Positions 1-57,015 are shown, counted from the stretch's first letter. The stretch is 58,580 nt of DNA from a virus (IMGVR_UViG_3300032431_000011:1-58580); one strand, 5' to 3'. Notes: a model not told the origin generated them from the letters alone. Program-made: numbers and translations.

Positions 1-564
1 CGAATCTTCTTTGATTCTAGATTTGTATTTTCGCAAACCGTAGAGTCGGCAACTGAAACAGTGGATAATGGCAAGGATATCTTCAACCATTTCTCGTTCT
101 GGAGACAAGTCTGTTCTACTGAGAACCACGAGTTTGCAATCGCTTTGCTCACATATCCATCTGATGAGGTCACAACCAAACCTTGCGAGTCGGTCTTGGT
201 GGCAGACCACAACTTGGCTGATGTCTCTTGACATGACTTGTCCCAGAAGGGAAAGAAGCCCTTTGCGCTTGAAATTGAGGCCGCCTCCGATGTCTCTGAA
301 GACTTGCCCTTGCGGGTAGAGTTCTTGGAGGTAGTTGATTTGTCTTTCGAGACCTTCTTTTTGCTTGGCGCTGCTGACTCGACAATAGAGTGCTGTAACT
401 CTTCTATCGATTCCGTCACTGAAAACGGAATCGATGTCGTATCTACGCTGGTTTGTGGGAGTTCTGATAGCTTGGATTTTGCCCGCTTCATCCCAGTTTC
501 TGAGTGTTTTTTCCGAGACTGAGAGGAATTTGCAGGCTTCTCTTGGTGTGACATAGCGGGTCAT
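1..564 (-). CDS. IS607-family serine recombinase (partial, C-terminus off window)
   Basis: The gene reads leftward from an ATG at 564 and runs off the window with 188 codons open. Residues 1-50 form a MerR-like helix-turn-helix start (MTRYVTPREACKFLSVSEKT) as in IS607 TnpA. The catalytic domain follows, with YCRVSS at about residues 59-64 carrying the presumed nucleophilic serine, then QINYLQE and VCHQDRLARFGCDLI. IS607 recombinases are about 190-220 residues, so only a few residues are missing. The family moves DNA through a circular intermediate by serine recombination, usually with a tnpB gene alongside, which here would lie left of the window. Family assignment is firm; whether the element is intact cannot be judged. 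Confidence 0.88.
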   Translation of the reverse strand, partial: MTRYVTPREACKFLSVSEKTLRNWDEAGKIQAIRTPTNQRRYDIDSVFSDGIDRRVTALYCRVSSAKQKEGLERQINYLQELYPQGQVFRDIGGGLNFKRKGLLSLLGQVMSRDISQVVVCHQDRLARFGCDLIRWICEQSDCKLVVLSRTDLSPEREMVEDILAIIHCFSCRLYGLRKYKSRIKEDS

Positions 565-3835: not shown

Positions 3836-3981
3836 GTGGTTTTTTCTATCTGTTATCACTATAGGCTACTCACTAAGACTTGTCAAGCATTTTGTGAAAG
3901 TATTTTTAAGACAGATTGAAAGCGTTGCTATGTATAATACTTAGCGGTTGTGTTTGCAAGGTGTTGGTAGCGTCGGTGTAG
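3836..3981. repeat. Direct repeat copy 2 containing a promoter
   Basis: Second copy of the 147-base regulatory repeat at 3286-3432. Its end flows straight into a rightward TTGACG promoter at 3987, an arrangement that recurs at about 6003-6057. Confidence 0.75.
3858..3886 (-). promoter_or_regulatory. Leftward sigma-70-type promoter
   Basis: TTGACA (3886-3881), 17 bases, TATAGT (3863-3858). The sequence around it matches the promoter at 3308-3336. Confidence 0.75.
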
Positions 3982-3986
3982 GGATG

Positions 3987-4017
3987 TTGACGCGCTGAGC
4001 CAGTCTGATGCTATCTG
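3987..4017 (+). promoter_or_regulatory. Rightward promoter, copy 1 of three
   Basis: TTGACG, 19 bases, TATCTG. The 19-base spacer (with AGTCTGATGC) is nearly identical at 4890-4920 and 6027-6057, which suggests a bound regulator as well as polymerase. This copy lacks the downstream hairpin module. It precedes the gene at 4181 by about 160 bases that hold only ATTGGTTATT repeats. Confidence 0.5.
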
Positions 4018-4180: not shown

Positions 4181-4375
4181 ATGGACGAATTAAATTCGGA
4201 ACTATTTTATTGTCGGCTTGATACGCTCAGAAAAGCATGGAAATTTTCTTGGTGTCAAGTTGCAAGACATGCGGACGTTGACCTGAGTGTACACGTCAGA
4301 CTAGCCCAAGGCTTTCCACCCAATCCTAAAGATATGAAAAAGCTGTATCATTGGTTGGACGAATATGGTGGTTGA
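4181..4375 (+). CDS. Hypothetical small protein (64 aa), possible helix-turn-helix
   Basis: MDELNSELFYCRLDTLRKAWKF starts a short protein whose middle (WCQVARHADVDLSVHVRLAQG) could form a helix-turn-helix. It ends KLYHWLDEYGG. No ribosome site is clear. It sits in line with the next rightward gene. The family is not recognised and DNA binding is only a guess. Confidence 0.5.
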   Translation: MDELNSELFYCRLDTLRKAWKFSWCQVARHADVDLSVHVRLAQGFPPNPKDMKKLYHWLDEYGG

Positions 4376-4867: not shown

Positions 4868-4889
4868 GTACGTAATTAAATTTGATTAG

Positions 4890-4920
4890 TTGACTCGCTG
4901 GGCTAGTCTGATGCTATACT
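4890..4920 (+). promoter_or_regulatory. Rightward promoter of structured leader A
   Basis: TTGACT (4890-4895), 19 bases, extended -10 TGCTATACT (TATACT at 4915-4920). Same spacer as the promoters at 3987 and 6027. The start point is expected near 4927, right at the first leader hairpin. Confidence 0.75.
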
Positions 4921-4927
4921 TAAACAA

Positions 4928-5122
4928 GAAGCCACCCGTTAGACGCGGGTGGCTTCAATCAAATCAACGAATACAACGAAAAAGAAATCATAGATTGCAG
5001 GTGAACTCAGCACATCTGAATCAATCATAGCACATATCCAACCGATGCTGTCAAGTGCTTCAGATTAATTCCTGCCAAGATTTTCTTCCGTTGTATTCAC
5101 CACAACCCTACACAAGGTGAAT
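4928..5122 (+). promoter_or_regulatory. Structured switch-like RNA leader A
   Basis: An 11-bp hairpin opens the transcript (GAAGCCACCCG 4928-4938 with 4946-4956). An outer stem P1 pairs GAATACAACG (4969-4978) with CGTTGTATTC (5089-5098). Inside it are GCAGG (4997-5001)/CCTGC (5071-5075), ATCTGA/TCAGAT (5014-5019/5060-5065) and AGCAC/GTGCT (5029-5033/5055-5059). A further hairpin, ATTCACC (5095-5101)/GGTGAAT (5116-5122), contains the AAGG ribosome site and shares ATTC with P1, so the two cannot form together. The same layout with different bases occurs at 6065-6276. I cannot match it to a known riboswitch class. Ligand or protein partner unknown. Confidence 0.75.
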
Positions 5123-5126
5123 CGAT

Positions 5127-5906
5127 ATGATTGACATTAATATTGACTTAACCACACAAGTCCCAAGAATAATCGAAGGTACTGACCCCGGACTCCGGGA
5201 ATTCACTGCCGCCGATTTTGCTGAGCCACCGACAGAAAATGACGAGCAAAAGATCCAGCGCGCAACTTTGCTTAATGAAATTAAAGCAGAGCAATATCGA
5301 CTGGGTATTGACAATTCCGCGCTGGAGTTTCTAACACATCAACAAACAGGAGCTATGAGCCTAACCGGAGGTATCCCAGTATTTAATGTGATGTTATTTC
5401 GAGATTATCTGCGGGGCTTAGAATCTCGACAATTACCAGAGGTCGAAATTGAAGCCCCGCCATATCTCGATTTTCAAGACGGTATTTTGTACATAGGAGG
5501 AAATAACAAAGAGTTGATGGAAAGCTGGGTTTACTTCCTAACCGAATCTCACACATTCGCAGTAGCCGGCAACTGGAATGTGGCGATTGAGCAGCGCTTT
5601 TTAAAACCAGTAAAGTATCAAGCAACAATTAAAGGGGTTGCCAGCGTAGAAGCTTTAAAATGGATTCAGCGTTTCTTCAATCCTAAAAAACACCCACCGC
5701 TCCACCCGATAGCCGAATGGAAACGCCCACCACCCGAATCTCCGAAACCTGCGGAGCCAGTATGGGTCGTCAGGGTAGACATGAAAGAAGTTTTCAAAGG
5801 TTGCGAAGTAGATGCTCGAAAAACGGCCATAGAACACGCTAGAAAGCCTCAATCAAGATCGGTCGGGATAATTTCTCCAGACTACAAATGTGAGTATCTA
5901 AAGTAA
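5127..5906 (+). CDS. Hypothetical protein under leader A (259 aa)
   Basis: ATG at 5127 with AAGGTG seven bases upstream, inside the leader hairpin. The N-terminal 110 residues are acidic and charged (TEGDP-like IIEGTDPGLREFTAAD). A middle block is YLDFQDGILYIGGNNKEL and FAVAGNWNVAIEQRF. A proline-rich linker (about 190-215) precedes a lysine/arginine-rich C-terminal segment (WVVRVDMKEVFKGCEVDARK). No family is recognised. Because it shares its leader type with the replication-like gene at 6284, the two products are probably controlled together. Confidence 0.8.
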   Translation: MIDINIDLTTQVPRIIEGTDPGLREFTAADFAEPPTENDEQKIQRATLLNEIKAEQYRLGIDNSALEFLTHQQTGAMSLTGGIPVFNVMLFRDYLRGLESRQLPEVEIEAPPYLDFQDGILYIGGNNKELMESWVYFLTESHTFAVAGNWNVAIEQRFLKPVKYQATIKGVASVEALKWIQRFFNPKKHPPLHPIAEWKRPPPESPKPAEPVWVVRVDMKEVFKGCEVDARKTAIEHARKPQSRSVGIISPDYKCEYLK

Positions 5907-6026
5907 GGATGCACAAACATTTCAAGCAATTCAACGTTTATCGTGGCCCGAGGTCTGGAAGTACCGAGTTCTTCCGTTAATTGCTCATTCGGAAAAGAGG
6001 AAATTGGTAGCGTCGGTGTAGGGATG

Positions 6027-6057
6027 TTGACGTGTTGGGCTAGTCTGATGCTATACT
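6027..6057 (+). promoter_or_regulatory. Rightward promoter of structured leader B
   Basis: TTGACG (6027-6032), 19 bases, TATACT (6052-6057) with TG extension. It is preceded by the tag TTGGTAGCGTCGGTGTAGGG, also seen at 3965-3985. Confidence 0.75.
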
Positions 6058-6064
6058 TAAGCAA

Positions 6065-6276
6065 GAAGCCACCTGCGGGTAGCGGGTGGCTTCAATCAAA
6101 CAATGTTGGATTTGGATTTGGATACAGCAGAACAAAACCTTAAGCAAGTTGGCGATTGTCCTTCTTTATTAATTGTAGCACACCCCTGGCGAACGTTGTC
6201 AAGTGCTATCAAATTAATTCTTAACAAGAGTCTCCTGCTGTATCCAACCGCAACCGCAAACATAAGCAAGTTGGAT
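6065..6276 (+). promoter_or_regulatory. Structured switch-like RNA leader B
   Basis: The 5' hairpin pairs 6065-6076 with 6082-6093. P1 is a perfect 13-bp stem, TTGGATACAGCAG (6118-6130) with CTGCTGTATCCAA (6235-6247). Inside lie TTAAG/CTTAA (6140-6144/6220-6224), ATTAATT/AATTAAT (6168-6174/6212-6218) and AGCAC/GTGCT (6177-6181/6203-6207, 21-nt loop as in leader A). The competing hairpin is ATCCAAC (6242-6248)/GTTGGAT (6270-6276), overlapping P1. P1, the second stem and the competing hairpin have other bases than leader A but the same pairing. Single-stranded CAAGA and TCAAGTGCT stay fixed. Confidence 0.75.
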
Positions 6277-6283
6277 CAGTACC

Positions 6284-7705
6284 ATGAAATCATCAAGACT
6301 AGGATACTTTGACGAAGATTTAGCTACCATCATCGGCGTAATTGAAGCCACCATGTTTAACAAGCTTCAGTGGTGTGTTGAGAGTCCTTCAATGGCTGGA
6401 ACAGTTGTAGATGGGCAAAAGTGGATTCGCAACCCTATCAAGTGCACAGACTCTAAAAAGAAAGAGCGAGTGCAAGAACACGGCAAGCTTATTGACTGGC
6501 GCGGCAATTTTCCATTCTTGAGTTTTTATCAAATCAAGTCTGGATTTGCCAAACTTGAAGAACTCGGTTTAGTCATCAGTCGGAAGCTTCGAGCCGGAAA
6601 ATGGGATGCCTGCAAGTATTACACCATTGACACAGAAAAGCTAGCTGAACTGCTGGAACCCGCATCACTACCCATTTGTCAAAATCCGTCAAATCGATAT
6701 GTCGAATCTCATCAAATCGATTTGATGACTGACTGCAAATCATATCAAGATACATCTCCAAAGAAAGTTATTCAAAAAGAACCTCTCACAGAAAGAGCGG
6801 GCGCGACTGTTTTAGTAAATTTAGAGAATGAAGAGAATGAAGAAAGCAGCCAAAGCAACCAAAGCAATGTCAATTTCCAAGTTGCCAAAGAAGTAGACTC
6901 AACAACAGAACCGATAACCTTGCAAGTTGATAAATGTTCCGCGCCGTCGAGTCCGGTTGTAAGAAAGGAGTTTTTCGAGGCATTGCTGGCGTACTGCTAC
7001 CAGCGGGTAGATATCGACTCTCCTGAAGGCTATGCTAACTGGGTAATGCGCGAATCTAAGTCCAGAACACCAGAGGCCAGCGTAGCAATGCTGTGGGATG
7101 AGTTTAACGCGGGTGAGGAGTTAGGCGGTCGCATGGTTCCCCCCGGATTCAGATTGCGCGGTGTACCTGAGCAAGTCGTTGTGGAGGCTATATCGCAGGA
7201 CTGTATCGGCAAGGTAGGTACAACGGCGACAGAGGCTGCCAAGAGTGCCGCTGGACAGTTACGCCGATTGCCAGTGGTTGCAGCGGTCGCCAATGCGGTA
7301 AAATTGCAGCTAGAGCGCTGTTTGGAAGGTGCAAAACGACAAGTAGAGTTAGGAGTCCCAAAGGAGCAAGCACTCTTGAATAATTTGCCAACCTACGCAA
7401 CCAACTGTAACGAGAATTTAATACCACAAATTGCCGCAAGTGAGACAGTTAAAATGCCAGAGTCAGTAGCAACAGACCCGACAAACCCTTATGCGCTAAC
7501 CGATGAAAATCGAGCCGCTAGAAAAAAGGCTTTTGAGATGGTTCAATCCAAACTTCCAAGAGAACGAACCAAGCGAGAGCAGCTATTGGCGGCAAATATG
7601 GCTGATGCGGCGGCTTTTGCGAAAGAAATGCCATTTACGAAGCCTGAACCAGTAATTGAGGTAGTAGTTGAAAAGCCAGTTGAGGATGAACCGATATTGT
7701 GGTGA
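6284..7705 (+). CDS. Replication-associated winged-helix protein candidate (473 aa)
   Basis: The N-terminus (GYFDEDLATIIGVIEATMFN, then FPFLSFYQIKSGFAKLEELG, LVISRKLRAGKWDACKYYTI) reads like the winged-helix start of phage replisome organisers, where the last helix meets a basic wing. A long low-complexity middle (ENEENEESSQSNQSN) follows. The C-terminal part is alanine-rich and helical and ends EKPVEDEPILW. In such proteins the N-terminal domain binds origin DNA and the tail contacts helicase or loader. The gene is behind leader B and just ahead of virion genes. The role is inferred from weak motif similarity. Confidence 0.5.
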   Translation: MKSSRLGYFDEDLATIIGVIEATMFNKLQWCVESPSMAGTVVDGQKWIRNPIKCTDSKKKERVQEHGKLIDWRGNFPFLSFYQIKSGFAKLEELGLVISRKLRAGKWDACKYYTIDTEKLAELLEPASLPICQNPSNRYVESHQIDLMTDCKSYQDTSPKKVIQKEPLTERAGATVLVNLENEENEESSQSNQSNVNFQVAKEVDSTTEPITLQVDKCSAPSSPVVRKEFFEALLAYCYQRVDIDSPEGYANWVMRESKSRTPEASVAMLWDEFNAGEELGGRMVPPGFRLRGVPEQVVVEAISQDCIGKVGTTATEAAKSAAGQLRRLPVVAAVANAVKLQLERCLEGAKRQVELGVPKEQALLNNLPTYATNCNENLIPQIAASETVKMPESVATDPTNPYALTDENRAARKKAFEMVQSKLPRERTKREQLLAANMADAAAFAKEMPFTKPEPVIEVVVEKPVEDEPILW

Positions 7706-37422: not shown

Positions 37423-37758
37423 ATGGAATCAGGAATATTGGCTATTCGATTTTTAAAAGCTAGCTTCACTAATGATTTCACAAGCTTAGCGGACTTTGGA
37501 AATGAAGACCCACAGACTATTCGCAAGGCGTGGCGACTGGCTAATATATTGCTTAATGAATCTGAGGTTGAACAGTTTAAACGTGTATTAGAATCTACCT
37601 TGAGCAATGATTCTCTTGATTTGGGTAAGTTAGAACATAGAACTTGGGCAAATATTCAGAACAAGAAAGAAAAATCAAAAAGTATTCTTAAAGCCAAAGA
37701 TATCAATTCGTTCAAGCAGATACTAAAGCCTAGACAGACCGACACCACTCTTTTATAG
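37423..37758 (+). CDS. Hypothetical protein after terminase (111 aa)
   Basis: ATG at 37423, four bases after the terminase stop, with AAGAG ahead of it. An earlier in-frame ATG at 37372 would overlap terL. Helical: ILAIRFLKASFTNDFTSLAD, WRLANILLNESEVEQFKRVL, and a lysine-rich KKEKSKSILKAKDINSFK. It converges on and overlaps the sigma-factor gene by 29 bases. Function unknown. Confidence 0.65.
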   Translation: MESGILAIRFLKASFTNDFTSLADFGNEDPQTIRKAWRLANILLNESEVEQFKRVLESTLSNDSLDLGKLEHRTWANIQNKKEKSKSILKAKDINSFKQILKPRQTDTTLL

Positions 37759-38491
37759 CTTCAAATACTTGTACTTTAGACAGGTCTAACAATTCAATTA
37801 TTCTATTGACGGATAGATATTCAAAGAAGTACAAGCGGATTACGGCTTCTTGATAGCTCAAATCGGCAATATCCACTTCTAATATATTCTTTATTTTACC
37901 TATTAATTCATTCTTTTCTAAACTATTTACTATGTGAGTTTCGTTAGCTTGCAATTCCCGCGATTTATAAGAATAAGTTGGCTCAACCTCTGAGTTAAGC
38001 GTATCTGAGACACTACTGATTGCGGTATCATAACAGGATATGTATCTACAATCTTGATATGCTTTTTTAGCCTTGCAAAACTCAGATTGAGTAACTCCAA
38101 GGTTGAAAAGTGATTGAAAGAACTCGTTTTTAGTGGGAGTCCGCCCCAAAGATACGCTTAATTCTCTGAGGATTCTCTTTCCTTTTTGAAGTATCTCATG
38201 ATATTTTCGAGGCAATTGAATGACATTAGAACTGTCTCTAACGAAGTTCAATAGCCGTCCCGTAATCAAGGGGATTGCAAAGGTGCTAAATTTAGCACCT
38301 ATTGTAGGGTCGTATCGCTCAACTGCTAAAATCAATCCCATTGATGCAATTTGCTCTAATTCTTCGTAAGGAATAGGCACTCTTGACGCAATTTTATGTG
38401 CGACAAAACGCGCCAAATTGATATTTTGTTCTACCAGTTTATTACGAATTCCGATAGTTGGATTTTCTTTATAATTACGAAAAGTTACCAT
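37730..38491 (-). CDS. RNA polymerase sigma-70 family factor (253 aa)
   Basis: Region 2 is clear: NINLARFVAHKIASRVPIPY, EELEQIASMGLILAVERYDP, TIGAKFSTFAIPLITGRLLN and FVRDSSNVIQLPRK (2.1-2.4). A region-3-like GRTPTKNEFFQSLFNLGV follows. Region 4 (DLSYQEAVIRLYFFEYLSVN, IIELLDLSKVQVFEAI) is present but its HTH is degenerate. It resembles group 3 (SigF/B-like) factors. It would redirect host RNA polymerase, most likely to late or its own promoters. It sits in a leftward block with an unknown gene and the portal. Confidence 0.85.
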   Translation of the reverse strand: MVTFRNYKENPTIGIRNKLVEQNINLARFVAHKIASRVPIPYEELEQIASMGLILAVERYDPTIGAKFSTFAIPLITGRLLNFVRDSSNVIQLPRKYHEILQKGKRILRELSVSLGRTPTKNEFFQSLFNLGVTQSEFCKAKKAYQDCRYISCYDTAISSVSDTLNSEVEPTYSYKSRELQANETHIVNSLEKNELIGKIKNILEVDIADLSYQEAVIRLYFFEYLSVNRIIELLDLSKVQVFEAIKEWCRSV

Positions 38492-50729: not shown

Positions 50730-52057
50730 AAAAACAGCGATTTTTGGGGTTTAGGTTGATTGCGGCCTTTCTGTTGATGCCAACAAAAAGGTCTTGTTAG
50801 AATGTTTCAATCCCTGATAGGGGTTTAGGTTGATTGCGACCGCAGAAAGCTAAGTCCACAGCAGCTTTACTCTTGCCGTTTCAATCCCTGATAGGGGTTT
50901 AGGTTGATTGCGACGTTGCATCCTCCGAATTAAATTGCCCAAACCTTTGTTTCAATCCCTGATAGGGGTTTAGGTTGATTGCGACGTTTTGCCGCCGAAA
51001 GCACATATCAGATGGCGCGGTTTCAATCCCTGATAGGGGTTTAGGTTGATTGCGACGTATGTTGGCAGACATTTTGGCTGGAACACTCGAGTTTCAATCC
51101 CTGATAGGGGTTTAGGTTGATTGCGACGGCTTAGGACTGCCAGAACCGACATTCCAAGTTGAGTTTCAATCCCTGATAGGGGTTTAGGTTGATTGCGACC
51201 CAATTACCCGCTAACAGCGCCGTGCTAACTGCCGTTTCAATCCCTGATAGGGGTTTAGGTTGATTGCGACTGGGGTTTGTGCAGCACATGATTGCTAGTC
51301 TGAGTTTCAATCCCTGATAGGGGTTTGGGTTGATTGCGGCTGCATTTATGGCATCGTAGTCCATGCCACCACCGATGTTTCAATCCCTGATAGGGGTTTA
51401 GGTTGATTGCGACGTTTCTCGAAATCTGCTTCAGCTTTTTCCAGTGAGTTTCAATCCCTGATAGGGGTTTAGGTTGATTGCGACACTTGTTTTCACTTCT
51501 AGCGGGATTTTGGTTAAGGTTTCAATCCCTGATAGGGGTTTAGGTTGATTGCGACGTCACGAACTAGAAGATGCAAAGTTAGTCACCAAAGTTTCAATCC
51601 CTGATAGGGGTTTAGGTTGATTGCGACAATAGAATCGAGTCTAACCCAGCTTGGCTAGTACGTTTCAATCCCTGATAGGGGTTTAGGTTGATTGCGACAG
51701 GCATTGATAGGAATTAGTCCTGCCTTTTGAGCGAGTTTCAATCCCTGATAGGGGTTTAAGTTTATTGCGACGAGGGGATGGACTTCACAAGGATTATAAC
51801 CTATGGTTTCAATCCCTGATAGGGGTTTAGGTTGATTGCGACGGAATAATCATAACCGACCGCTACCGTGTTAAGCGTTTCAATCCCTGATAGGGGTTTA
51901 GGTTGATTGCGACTGTAGCCAAGGAATTCGGATATCACTCCGGCCCGCTGTTTCAATCCCTGATAGGGGTTTAGGTTGATTGCGACTGTAGATAAAGCGA
52001 TTATCGCCTCTGCCAAACATGTTTCAATCCCTGATAGGGGTTTAGGTTGATTGCGAC
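50730..52057 (-). CRISPR. CRISPR array, 18 repeats plus one degenerate terminal repeat
   Basis: Repeats of 37 nt start at 50804, 50878, 50949, 51020, 51091, 51163, 51234, 51304, 51377, 51448, 51519, 51591, 51662, 51735, 51806, 51877, 51950 and 52021. Spacers are 33-37 nt. A degenerate copy at 50730-50766 keeps GGGGTTTAGGTTGATTGC. Variants are at 51304 and 51735. Read on the minus strand the repeat starts GTCGCAATC and ends GGGATTGAAAC, the usual 3' handle. The degenerate copy then lies at the leader-distal end. No cas genes are in the window, so it would depend on host Cas proteins. Confidence 0.97.
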
Positions 52058-52225
52058 CGCAGACGTGTGAAATCGTTGGTGTATCTAGTTTTCAAGATTG
52101 AGTTGCGGTAAATCGACTCCCGCAATTGCAAAAGTGTTATGGAAAGATTGAATATTATTCAGTTTTCGTGGTTCGGTTAAGTCTATTGTAATCGAAGATG
52201 CGAATCCTGTCAACCCAATTTTCTA
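52058..52225 (-). promoter_or_regulatory. CRISPR leader region
   Basis: AT-rich stretch next to the intact repeat end of the array. TTGCGG/CCGCAA arms (about 52102-52125) form a small hairpin. No ORF. Placed here because the terminal degenerate repeat is on the other side and the repeat handle reads leftward. An exact promoter was not identified. Confidence 0.55.
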
Positions 52226-53652: not shown

Positions 53653-56600
53653 GTGAGTAACAAAGTATCACTCGATTATCTTTTGTACAATGACCTGATA
53701 GTGAAATCAGGCATTGATGAGGATATTGCCCGTTTGAATTTCCTTGCCTCACAAGGCCTTGCGACCTACGGACTCCTCTACAGCGAAACAGATAAAACGA
53801 CTAATAGCGATAGCAGCGGTGGCAGCAGTGTAGAGGCGGCCCGCAATCTTGCTCGGTGTACTGGGAGTGCTGGGTATACGCTAGGCAACAAATTTTATCT
53901 ACCCGCAGATTTAGCCGGAGATACCAAAGCGGCCAGATTTGGGATTATCAAAGAAAAAGGTATTTACTGGTCTGCGGGTCAACCTGCGAGGGGATGGACT
54001 TGCAATGGCCGCTTTAAACAACTTGATGGGATACCGCTTGGCTACAAGCAAAAAAAAGAACGCAAAGGATTTGGCTTGGAGCCCCGAACATACTTCCAGC
54101 CCAAAGGGGAGCCATTAGAAATCTTCTTTCCTTTAGTAAATGAAAGTATTGGGAAACTGATACTAGCCAAGGCTAATTTGCCTGTACCAGAATTTCCTGT
54201 AATTGGGTTACGGGGAGAATGGATTGATTTTTGGGATTTGATACTTAATAATCATTGCCCAATCGTAATTACTGAAGGTGAAAAGAAAGCAGCAGCGGTA
54301 ATCAGTCGTGGGTATGCAGCAATCGGATTACCAGGAATAAACACCGGGTACAAAGTTACCGAACGCGGCGAGAGCGTCACAAAAGCTGATGGAACACAAT
54401 ATCAAAGAGCAACTGCACGAGAACTCCACGAATCACTCAAACCGTTTGACACAGAAGGTCGTGCAATAACAATTCTCTTCGACTACCGAGATGGGGATTA
54501 TTCACAAAGTTCAGAATTCAAAGCGTCCAGCACTTTAAGCAAATTATTCAAAAGTGCAATTGTTAAAGTTGCACTTTTGCCAGGCCCGGACAAAGGTGCT
54601 GATGATTTTGTAGTTGGGGGCGGTAATCTTACCAAGGTAATTACTGATGCTCAAGATTGCCGAAAGCTGGAAATAAAAGCACAGTGGCGGCGTTATAGGA
54701 ATTACATTCCCGATTGCATAATCAACTCCCGATTCTTTCATGCACCCGCACCAGCCTCCGGCACAATTACAGCCATTAAAAGCGGTCTAGCGACGGGAAA
54801 GACTCAATGGCTCAAAGATATCATTGCCAGCAATCCAGAAGGCAGAATCATTGTTTTGGGGAGTCGGAATGGGCTGCTCTTGCAGACAGCCGAAAAATGC
54901 GAGTTTTACCACCTTGATGCTCACAATGGGTATTTGATGTTTCGTGACCCTAACGCCCGCCTATGCCTGTGCTTTGATTCGCTGCTCAAACTTCCTCCTG
55001 ATATTTTTGAAGGCGCGACAATCATTTTGGATGAAACCGAAAGCGTTATCAGGCACTTACTAATGTCCCCGACTCTGAAGCACAATAGGGAAGCGATTAA
55101 ACAACTATTCGCTCAAGCTTGTCAAGATGCTAGCCGAATAATTTTGCTGGATGGGCATCTAACAGATTACACAGTTAGTGTGATTGCAAAGCTCGCGGGC
55201 AACAAGCCAATCACAAAATACCTGAACGAATATAAAGGCAATTGCCCGAAAATTAGCGTTTACCAAACTGAAAAGGCAACTGCGACAGCAGCCGAAAAAC
55301 AGGACTTTATTAATAGAATCCTAGCCTCGGATTGTCCAGTAATTGCTACAGATTGCTCTGTAGCCGAATCAGAAGCCCTTGCCTTGAGCCTAACCGAGGT
55401 AAAAGGTAAAGGCCTTTTAGTATGCTCAAAAAACTCAAATGACCCTGAAGAAACTGCCTTACAAACCAACCCCGACGCCCATCTTGGAAAAGAAATCCTG
55501 AACTGGTTTGCTTACACGCCTACACTTGAGAACGGGCTTGATATTAGCACGTCTGGAAAGTTTTCGGATGTATTCGGATTGTTCTGCGGGAATCTGGGGA
55601 TTAATTCACTAATCCAGATGTTACGGCGTGTAAGGCATCCTATCAATCAAATCTCGGTTCTTTGCCCTCAAATTGGGCTTAGCAGCAGTGACGATAAAAA
55701 GTCGTATTACGATAATCAAATCAGGCATCAAATAGAAGCTACTATTTCTATTGAAAGCACGTTGCTATGCCCATCAGAGTATGAAGAAGCTGTCAGGGCT
55801 GACATTCTCCGGCAATTGGATGACCCGCTATTTTATGCCTATTGTCACTACAAAGCTCAGGAGAATTTAGAGAAATCCAATCTAAGAGAATTTTTGATAG
55901 AAGCCTTGATAGACGGCGGATACGAGGTTAATGAGCCGATATTGAATGAAGATGAATCCGGCGACCATGCTAACAAAAAAACTGCCTGCAAGGAGCAAGA
56001 ATCACAGGAAATATTCAACTCTCCTGATATCGCACTAGAGGAAGCTCAAGAAATATCTCGCAGAAACAAAGCAAGGTGGCCCGAAAGATGCCAAGCTGAA
56101 AAAGCGTTTCTCAAAGCAAGATTGCCAGCAATTGAAAATACAGAACTGTGGAAATGGGAATTTGTACACAGAATTCGAGGTAAGGATAGTTCCCTATTAT
56201 CTCAATTAGAGAATTCTTGGCTATTCCACAATCCAGAGGATGCTGAATACTTGCAGAAATCTAAATGGGAATCGGACGGGCTTGAATCCTTCCTACCTGA
56301 CCACAGCACCCGCTGGCTGAAACTCCAAGCACTTCGCGAACTCAACATAATACAATTCCTAAATCCTGCTGACGCTTCTTGGACTAATGAATCAATAGAA
56401 ATTAAAAAGCTCTTGAAAGGTGGAGAGCGCAAAGGCATTCGGAAAATACTGGGGGAGCCGGGCAAGGACGGCATCAAGTACCTTAATAAATTGTTGGGGC
56501 TGATAGGCATAAAGTTGGTGTCCAGACGGACGCGGGGAGGAGATGGGAAACGGGGATATGAGTATTTCTACCAGCCGGAGGTAACGTGGAAGGAAAGCAA

Positions 56601-57015
56601 AACCGGTCTGACCCGTATATGCTCCTTGGCTGAAAATTGGCACGAACTTTTTGACTTGACAGCAGCCAGGATGAGTCAAAAAACTGAAGCAAAAAGAGCA
56701 TCTGTAAAATCGGCTGAAACCGCTAGTCCGTCTAGTGTTGGGGCTGGCCTAGATACTCCTATTTTTATTAATAATCAAATAGGAGTATCTAGGACAGCAT
56801 CAGCTACCCAAACAGAGCCATCGACTAACCCCCAAAACCCCAAATCCTCCGAATCTATCGGCAGGATGGGCTGGGTGAGTCGATGGGGGAAATGGGTGAG
56901 AGCTTGCTTTGTGGCAGCCACGGACGACGCGCAGTACCGGATGCTGATAGAGCAAGTAGGCGAGGTTCTGGCCTGGCCCGACAAGATTCGATGGGAGGTG
57001 CCCCTTGAAGTTTGA
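53653..57015 (+). CDS. CyRepA1-like plasmid replication protein (1120 aa)
   Basis: The GTG start follows GGGGG. The N-terminal region contains GIPLGYKQKKERKGFGLEPR and a TOPRIM-like DUF3854 block PIVITEGEKKAAAVISRGYA, AIGLPGINTGYK then ITILFDYRDGDYSQSS (E...DxD). The next domain has a Walker A-like IKSGLATGKTQWLKDIIASN and a Walker B-like ATIILDETESVIRH, followed by helicase-like ILLDGHLTD and MLRRVRHPINQISVL. This primase/ATPase order is the cyanobacterial CyRepA1 replication initiator plan. It marks the element as plasmid-capable. Confidence 0.8.
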   Translation: MSNKVSLDYLLYNDLIVKSGIDEDIARLNFLASQGLATYGLLYSETDKTTNSDSSGGSSVEAARNLARCTGSAGYTLGNKFYLPADLAGDTKAARFGIIKEKGIYWSAGQPARGWTCNGRFKQLDGIPLGYKQKKERKGFGLEPRTYFQPKGEPLEIFFPLVNESIGKLILAKANLPVPEFPVIGLRGEWIDFWDLILNNHCPIVITEGEKKAAAVISRGYAAIGLPGINTGYKVTERGESVTKADGTQYQRATARELHESLKPFDTEGRAITILFDYRDGDYSQSSEFKASSTLSKLFKSAIVKVALLPGPDKGADDFVVGGGNLTKVITDAQDCRKLEIKAQWRRYRNYIPDCIINSRFFHAPAPASGTITAIKSGLATGKTQWLKDIIASNPEGRIIVLGSRNGLLLQTAEKCEFYHLDAHNGYLMFRDPNARLCLCFDSLLKLPPDIFEGATIILDETESVIRHLLMSPTLKHNREAIKQLFAQACQDASRIILLDGHLTDYTVSVIAKLAGNKPITKYLNEYKGNCPKISVYQTEKATATAAEKQDFINRILASDCPVIATDCSVAESEALALSLTEVKGKGLLVCSKNSNDPEETALQTNPDAHLGKEILNWFAYTPTLENGLDISTSGKFSDVFGLFCGNLGINSLIQMLRRVRHPINQISVLCPQIGLSSSDDKKSYYDNQIRHQIEATISIESTLLCPSEYEEAVRADILRQLDDPLFYAYCHYKAQENLEKSNLREFLIEALIDGGYEVNEPILNEDESGDHANKKTACKEQESQEIFNSPDIALEEAQEISRRNKARWPERCQAEKAFLKARLPAIENTELWKWEFVHRIRGKDSSLLSQLENSWLFHNPEDAEYLQKSKWESDGLESFLPDHSTRWLKLQALRELNIIQFLNPADASWTNESIEIKKLLKGGERKGIRKILGEPGKDGIKYLNKLLGLIGIKLVSRRTRGGDGKRGYEYFYQPEVTWKESKTGLTRICSLAENWHELFDLTAARMSQKTEAKRASVKSAETASPSSVGAGLDTPIFINNQIGVSRTASATQTEPSTNPQNPKSSESIGRMGWVSRWGKWVRACFVAATDDAQYRMLIEQVGEVLAWPDKIRWEVPLEV

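Follow-up and report, generated by a model that had tools for sequence, protein, structure and literature searches.

Each of two paralogous leaders in this virus (~4927 to 5126 and ~6064 to 6283 of the 58,580-base record, the whole of which was analyzed and is called the window here) is probably a translational switch operated by a counter-transcribed RNA. The evidence comprises stems and their compensatory changes, promoter and terminator signals, a switch predicted in four leaders, and association with a replication (rep) gene. According to this model, a sense promoter would start the mRNA at its 5' hairpin, and a back-facing promoter within the leader would give rise to an antisense RNA of ~90 to 110 nt. 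That RNA would end at the 5' hairpin, whose minus-strand sequence would act as an intrinsic terminator; the antisense RNA would be fully complementary to the first 86 to 102 nt of the mRNA. When no antisense RNA is present, the 5' half of the leader would pair with the 3' half in an outer stem, holding the 3' arm off the ribosome site. Antisense RNA lying on the 5' half would free the 3' arm to fold onto the sequence preceding the start codon, blocking translation. More genome copies would mean more antisense RNA, and the initiator would thereby be capped; we infer that synthesis of the antisense RNA, its binding, and the ensuing fall in translation would serve control of copy number or of lytic replication.

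Both leaders present, in the same order, a sense promoter, a 5' hairpin, an outer stem enclosing ~110 nt, and a 7-bp start-proximal hairpin that shares bases, through its 5' arm, with the outer stem's 3' arm. In unit 1, on the plus strand, the promoter lies at 4890 to 4920 (TTGACT-N19-TATACT, with TGC before the -10 element; mRNA start at ~4927), the 5' hairpin at 4928 to 4956 (followed by TTGTTT when read on the minus strand), the outer stem arms at 4969 to 4978 (GAATACAACG) and 5089 to 5098 (CGTTGTATTC), and the ribosome-site hairpin at 5095 to 5122 (ATTCACC at 5095 to 5101, GGTGAAT at 5116 to 5122). This hairpin includes a Shine-Dalgarno-like AAGG and ends 4 nt before the ATG at 5127. The corresponding plus-strand elements of unit 2 are the promoter at 6027 to 6057 (TTGACG-N19-TATACT; mRNA start at ~6064), the 5' hairpin at 6065 to 6093, the outer stem arms at 6118 to 6130 (TTGGATACAGCAG) and 6235 to 6247 (CTGCTGTATCCAA), and the start-proximal hairpin at 6242 to 6276 (ATCCAAC at 6242 to 6248, GTTGGAT at 6270 to 6276), which ends 7 nt before the ATG at 6284; leader 2 has no evident Shine-Dalgarno sequence. 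The block containing the sense promoter and the 5' hairpin (4889 to 4963 and 6026 to 6100) is 87% identical between copies. Folded as single strands, the leaders gave z scores of -5.65 (leader 1) and -3.47 (leader 2), and none of 200 shuffles of either folded as well. The promoters, 5' hairpins, stems, and start-proximal hairpins listed in a preliminary description of this DNA were all found in place.

Four distinct leaders were available for comparison, two in the window and two (L008 and L009) in sister viruses; all belong to one virus clade and amount to few independent observations. The near relatives are only three IMG/VR contigs: G001 and G002, which carry identical leaders, and G003, with terminase identity to the window of 95% in G002 and 98% in G003. 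The unit 1 leader is closest in sequence to L008 (93% identity). L009 (5760 to 6003) looks recombinant, being leader-2-like as far as TGTAT and leader-1-like in the hairpin and start region that follow. The sense-promoter motif TTGAC-N17-TGCTA is present in all four leaders, with a -10 element of TATAAT in L008 and L009. Searching the viral contigs with four DNA patterns and one loose pattern for further relatives of the leader returned the same three contigs only; other pattern matches that were inspected or compared (L013 to L017, L056, and L057 to L091) proved to be chance matches. The leader DNA had no match among phages or plasmids, the rep protein had no relative in genome contigs, and the terminase, searched in the same contigs, found distant hosts only.

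Alignment of leader 1 with leader 2 in gap-free register revealed that 3 of the 10 outer stem pairs and 2 of the 7 hairpin pairs changed between copies, in every case on both sides, with all pairs Watson-Crick and none broken. These five fully compensated pairs bear out the earlier description of the leaders as covarying. T5097 can pair either with A4970 in the outer stem or with A5120 in the hairpin; leader 2 has C6244 at the equivalent position and a G in place of each partner. Such a joint change of a base and its two alternative partners is direct evidence that the RNA has two states. In simulations of unconstrained evolution at four rates, not one of 300,000 runs per rate kept all 17 pairs Watson-Crick while changing 3 or more positions of the 5' arm. 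In L009, the outer stem is mostly formed via G-U pairs, which exist on the plus strand only and would be mismatches on the minus strand; there is one mismatch overall. For the 5' hairpin, G-U asymmetry gives no uniform strand preference, with L008 and L009 favoring the minus strand and leader 2 favoring the plus strand. A second stem that had been described inside the outer one (GCAGG/CCTGC and TTAAG/CTTAA) fared unevenly, being kept in L008 with a G-U pair but not clearly present in L009.

Each leader also contains a promoter on the opposite strand. Antisense promoter 1 occupies 5024 to 5054 on the minus strand (TTGACA at 5054 to 5049, N19, TATGAT at 5029 to 5024, with an AT-rich block upstream), and antisense promoter 2 occupies 6172 to 6202 on the same strand (TTGACA at 6202 to 6197, N19, TACAAT at 6177 to 6172). 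The 58.6-kb window has only nine sigma-70-like sites of such strength, where 0.9 would be expected, and these promoters are two of them. A 19-nt spacing is unusually long for sigma-70, and the sense promoter has it too; a scan at spacings of 16 to 18 misses these sites. The motif TTGAC-N17-TGCTA occurs five times in the window (three sense, two antisense) versus 0.2 expected, always within copies of the promoter/leader module. A solitary third copy of the sense promoter (3987 to 4016, TTGACGCGCTGAGCCAGTCTGATGCTATCT) lies upstream of a 64-aa open reading frame at 4181 and has neither hairpin nor antisense promoter. The virus encodes a phage sigma factor (37730 to 38491, minus strand; phrog_351, 9e-25), a possible reader of such promoters. 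Leftward genes are preceded by a repeated promoter, TTGACA-N17-TATAGT, at 3886 to 3858 and 3336 to 3308 (minus strand), and a block resembling it (ctgttatcactataggctactcac...ttgtcaag) is again seen ahead of leftward genes in the contigs of L008 and L009.

Comparison of the two leaders (n = 2) located the conservation peaks at the sense promoter with its hairpin and at the antisense -35 element with its AT-rich upstream sequence. Between the arms, conservation is highest in a block of 24 columns, at 88% compared to ~40% in the flanking interior; this block contains TGTCAA, which is the complement of TTGACA, and the AT-rich stretch. As had been noted, each copy has AGCAC and GTGCT separated by 21 nt, but the proposal that they form a loop-closing stem gives way to a better one, that they are the flanks of the minus-strand promoter. 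A one-base deletion in L009 damages the AGCAC half and leaves the antisense promoter with a spacing of 18 instead of 19; by this comparison, the element retained appears to be the promoter rather than the AGCAC/GTGCT stem. An independent scan placed minus-strand terminators at both 5' hairpins. Their T-tracts are modest except in L008, the most convincing case, where CTGTTTTTATT follows the hairpin. Signals for an opposite-strand promoter inside the leader and a terminator, together delimiting an RNA of 80 to 110 nt, were found in all four leaders. Most likely, judging from these signals, each leader makes an antisense RNA of ~90 to 110 nt over the first 86 to 102 nt of its own mRNA. As delimited by promoter and terminator, predicted antisense RNA 1 would span 4920 to 5017 on the minus strand (~91 to 98 nt, complementary to nt 1 to 91 of mRNA 1), and predicted antisense RNA 2 would span 6057 to 6165 on the minus strand (~102 to 109 nt). 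The part covered is the 5' part of the leader and not the ribosome site, as the start codon lies at mRNA nt 194 to 221.

We ran folding predictions on each mRNA, beginning at the predicted transcription start and extending through the first 60 nt of the gene, with the RNA either free or with the antisense-covered part (nt 1 to 91, 1 to 102, 1 to 87, and 1 to 86 in the four leaders) barred from pairing. The probability of the start-proximal hairpin rose from 0.02, 0.00, 0.00, and 0.03 in the free mRNAs to 0.87, 0.99, 0.98, and 0.96 in the blocked ones. The flip required that the 5' outer arm be blocked, and blocking the 5' hairpin alone had no effect; among shuffled leaders, 7 of 600 showed the same flip. 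In the bound state, the 3' arm of the hairpin before the start was closed in all four leaders. The prediction that the start region opens in the free mRNA was clear for L008 and L009 and weak for leaders 1 and 2, for which other pairings with the coding sequence were predicted. Taken with the three-way covariation, the folding in silico upholds the earlier suggestion of a built-in switch in which the outer stem and the ribosome-site hairpin are mutually exclusive. Control of both genes by a single signal, as had been proposed, is unproven: the predicted pairing energies of the antisense RNAs were -175 and -203 kcal/mol with their own leaders and -67 to -76 kcal/mol with the other leader, and the hairpin loops differ between predicted antisense RNAs 1 and 2. 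The strong own-leader preference in these calculations is consistent with separate addressing of the two antisense RNAs, and partial cross-pairing via the common hairpin arms is possible.

An antisense transcript could be real and yet act on transcription, either by causing premature termination in the leader or through polymerase collision, and we consider this unlikely. The 87-nt RNAI of pT181 is antisense to the repC leader, which has the same geometry as the leaders described here (PMC5703833). Binding of pT181 RNAI, or of RNAIII to the repR leader of pIP501, produces a hairpin just before the start codon that is mainly a transcription terminator (PMC5703833). The viral leaders share the start-proximal hairpin, but no T-run follows it in either, which makes pT181-type termination unlikely; no plus-strand terminator was found at 5095 to 5135 or 6242 to 6290, and with no intrinsic terminator at either start-proximal hairpin we rejected assignment to the pT181/pIP501 attenuation class. 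The convergent promoters are ~100 bp apart, an arrangement suited to collision, but collision alone would not need a covarying hairpin before the start codon.

Binding of a ligand or protein to the nested stems, with the ribosome-site hairpin toggled as in a riboswitch, seems to us quite improbable. A two-state architecture with compensatory changes suits any cis-acting switch, and the leaders fold far better than shuffles; however, their interior differs at 38% of positions between copies and has no aptamer-like conserved core, the sole strong interior conservation is the promoter and its upstream block, and the AGCAC/GTGCT stem is damaged in L009. No Rfam class was assigned to the leaders, even at a relaxed threshold: the covariance-model search recovered only HEARO elsewhere in the window, and the best hit in the region was an unrelated lncRNA with an E value of 0.79, far below threshold, in agreement with the preliminary description, which knew of no matching class. 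The HEARO RNA itself (RF02033; 1515 to 1734, minus strand; 142 bits, E value of 1e-29) is complete. The idea of a metabolite riboswitch is left unsupported, the conserved block being the antisense promoter that had been overlooked, and the signal is likely a counter-transcribed RNA. It is very improbable that the inverted repeats work as DNA elements, be it operators or origin sites, that Rep or a repressor would bind: TAGCAC and GTGCTA do flank the antisense -35 and -10 elements, about two helical turns apart, and the leader adjoins rep, but a site recognized by a protein would be conserved in sequence, and the outer stem and hairpin have diverged in sequence yet keep pairing, and the G-U pair in L009 is usable by RNA only.

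The counter-transcribed RNA would regulate different genes in the two units. Leader 1 drives an orphan gene (5127 to 5906, plus strand) whose 259-aa product has no relative in Pfam, PHROGs, PDB, phages, plasmids, viral contigs, or the sister viruses; structure prediction without an alignment gave a mean pLDDT of 34, too low to be of use. Leader 2 drives a phage replication initiator of 473 aa (6284 to 7705, plus strand) with a DnaD/O-like winged-helix N terminus. The N-terminal part matched phrog_11233 (2.5e-12) and phrog_6493 (1.2e-8), annotated as replication initiation protein and DnaD-like helicase loader, and these matches support the earlier view that the leaders precede an unknown gene and a replication gene. 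A leader before the orphan gene is found in this virus only; in the sister viruses, the sole leader found is directly 5' of the rep gene. The simplest history would be insertion of the orphan gene and a second leader at the rep start codon, whereby the old leader came to drive the orphan gene and the new one rep. The window also encodes an 1120-aa replication protein (53653 to 57015) with DUF3854 and an origin-binding-helicase-like part, so the virus has two replication-initiator-type genes. Its domain type is similar to that of cyanobacterial plasmid Rep proteins; DUF3854 is present in G003 and was not found in G002. CyRepA1 of the plasmid pSYSA, which we take to be a DUF3854 member, and the viral DUF3854 protein appear to be of the same kind.

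In addition to the DUF3854 replication protein, the virus record includes a terminase, a portal-like protein (DUF4055), and a phage sigma factor. The host is presumably a cyanobacterium, as judged from the DUF3854 protein and the CRISPR repeat type. The virus-borne CRISPR array (50804 to 52060) has 18 repeats (GTTTCAATCCCTGATAGGGGTTTAGGTTGATTGCGAC) and 17 spacers of 33 to 37 nt, none of which matched the other sequences compared. Examined for a phage-plasmid lifestyle, the window and two sister contigs yielded neither a tyrosine integrase nor a ParA-type ATPase, but a serine recombinase domain (PF00239, 4.6e-20) is located at the left end of the window (28 to 393, minus strand).

Short antisense RNAs that regulate neighboring genes near replication or immunity functions are familiar from phages, among them lambda OOP, P22 sar, and P1/P4 c4. 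To our knowledge, none of these flips a rep leader into a ribosome-blocking hairpin. As far as we found, antisense-flipped leaders are known from bacterial plasmids, with no example in phages like this one; text searches, of incomplete literature coverage, returned no phage case of an antisense-flipped rep leader. RNAI of pSK41, from staphylococcal RepA_N plasmids, is ~83 nt long with two stem-loops and has its target ~100 nt upstream of the start; its binding is proposed to trigger formation of a stem-loop in which the ribosome site is sequestered, with no transcription attenuation (PMC5703833). The likeness lies in a counter-transcribed antisense RNA, here predicted, directed to the rep leader and in an induced stem-loop that closes the ribosome site: an internal antisense promoter, complementarity to the 5' part, and an induced, exclusive stem-loop at the start were all found in silico. 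The differences from pSK41 are that the viral unit belongs to a tailed phage whose host is probably a cyanobacterium, that the DnaD/O-like initiator is unrelated, and that no similarity in sequence was found; in addition, the viral unit occurs twice, once before an orphan gene, and the antisense RNA would cover the mRNA from its very 5' end. Descent from pSK41 or other RepA_N plasmids was rejected, as Rep matches phage DnaD/O-like initiators and there was no plasmid DNA match. In Synechocystis, the replication locus ssr7036-slr7037 of pSYSA has an abundant antisense RNA, asRNA1, of ~150 nt, which covers a small open reading frame and which the authors compared to ColE1 RNAI (PMC9978351). Unlike the predicted viral RNAs, asRNA1 was not described as inducing a start-codon hairpin, and the viral unit precedes a different rep gene.

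A translational switch of this kind would bring antisense control of replication initiators through induced ribosome-site sequestration, as described in Gram-positive plasmids, to a tailed phage whose host is probably cyanobacterial. It would offer a clean natural case of one base covarying with two alternative partners, as well as a small, modular, duplicated RNA control part. We suggest only tentatively that a phage lineage took up plasmid-style antisense-RNA control and duplicated the module, placing a second, lineage-specific gene under independent address; if that is true, an RNA-based determinant of incompatibility or superinfection between sister viruses is possible. If the antisense RNA sets the replication level, sister viruses whose hairpin loops differ may be compatible or incompatible at the RNA level, and phage-phage exclusion of this form would be testable.
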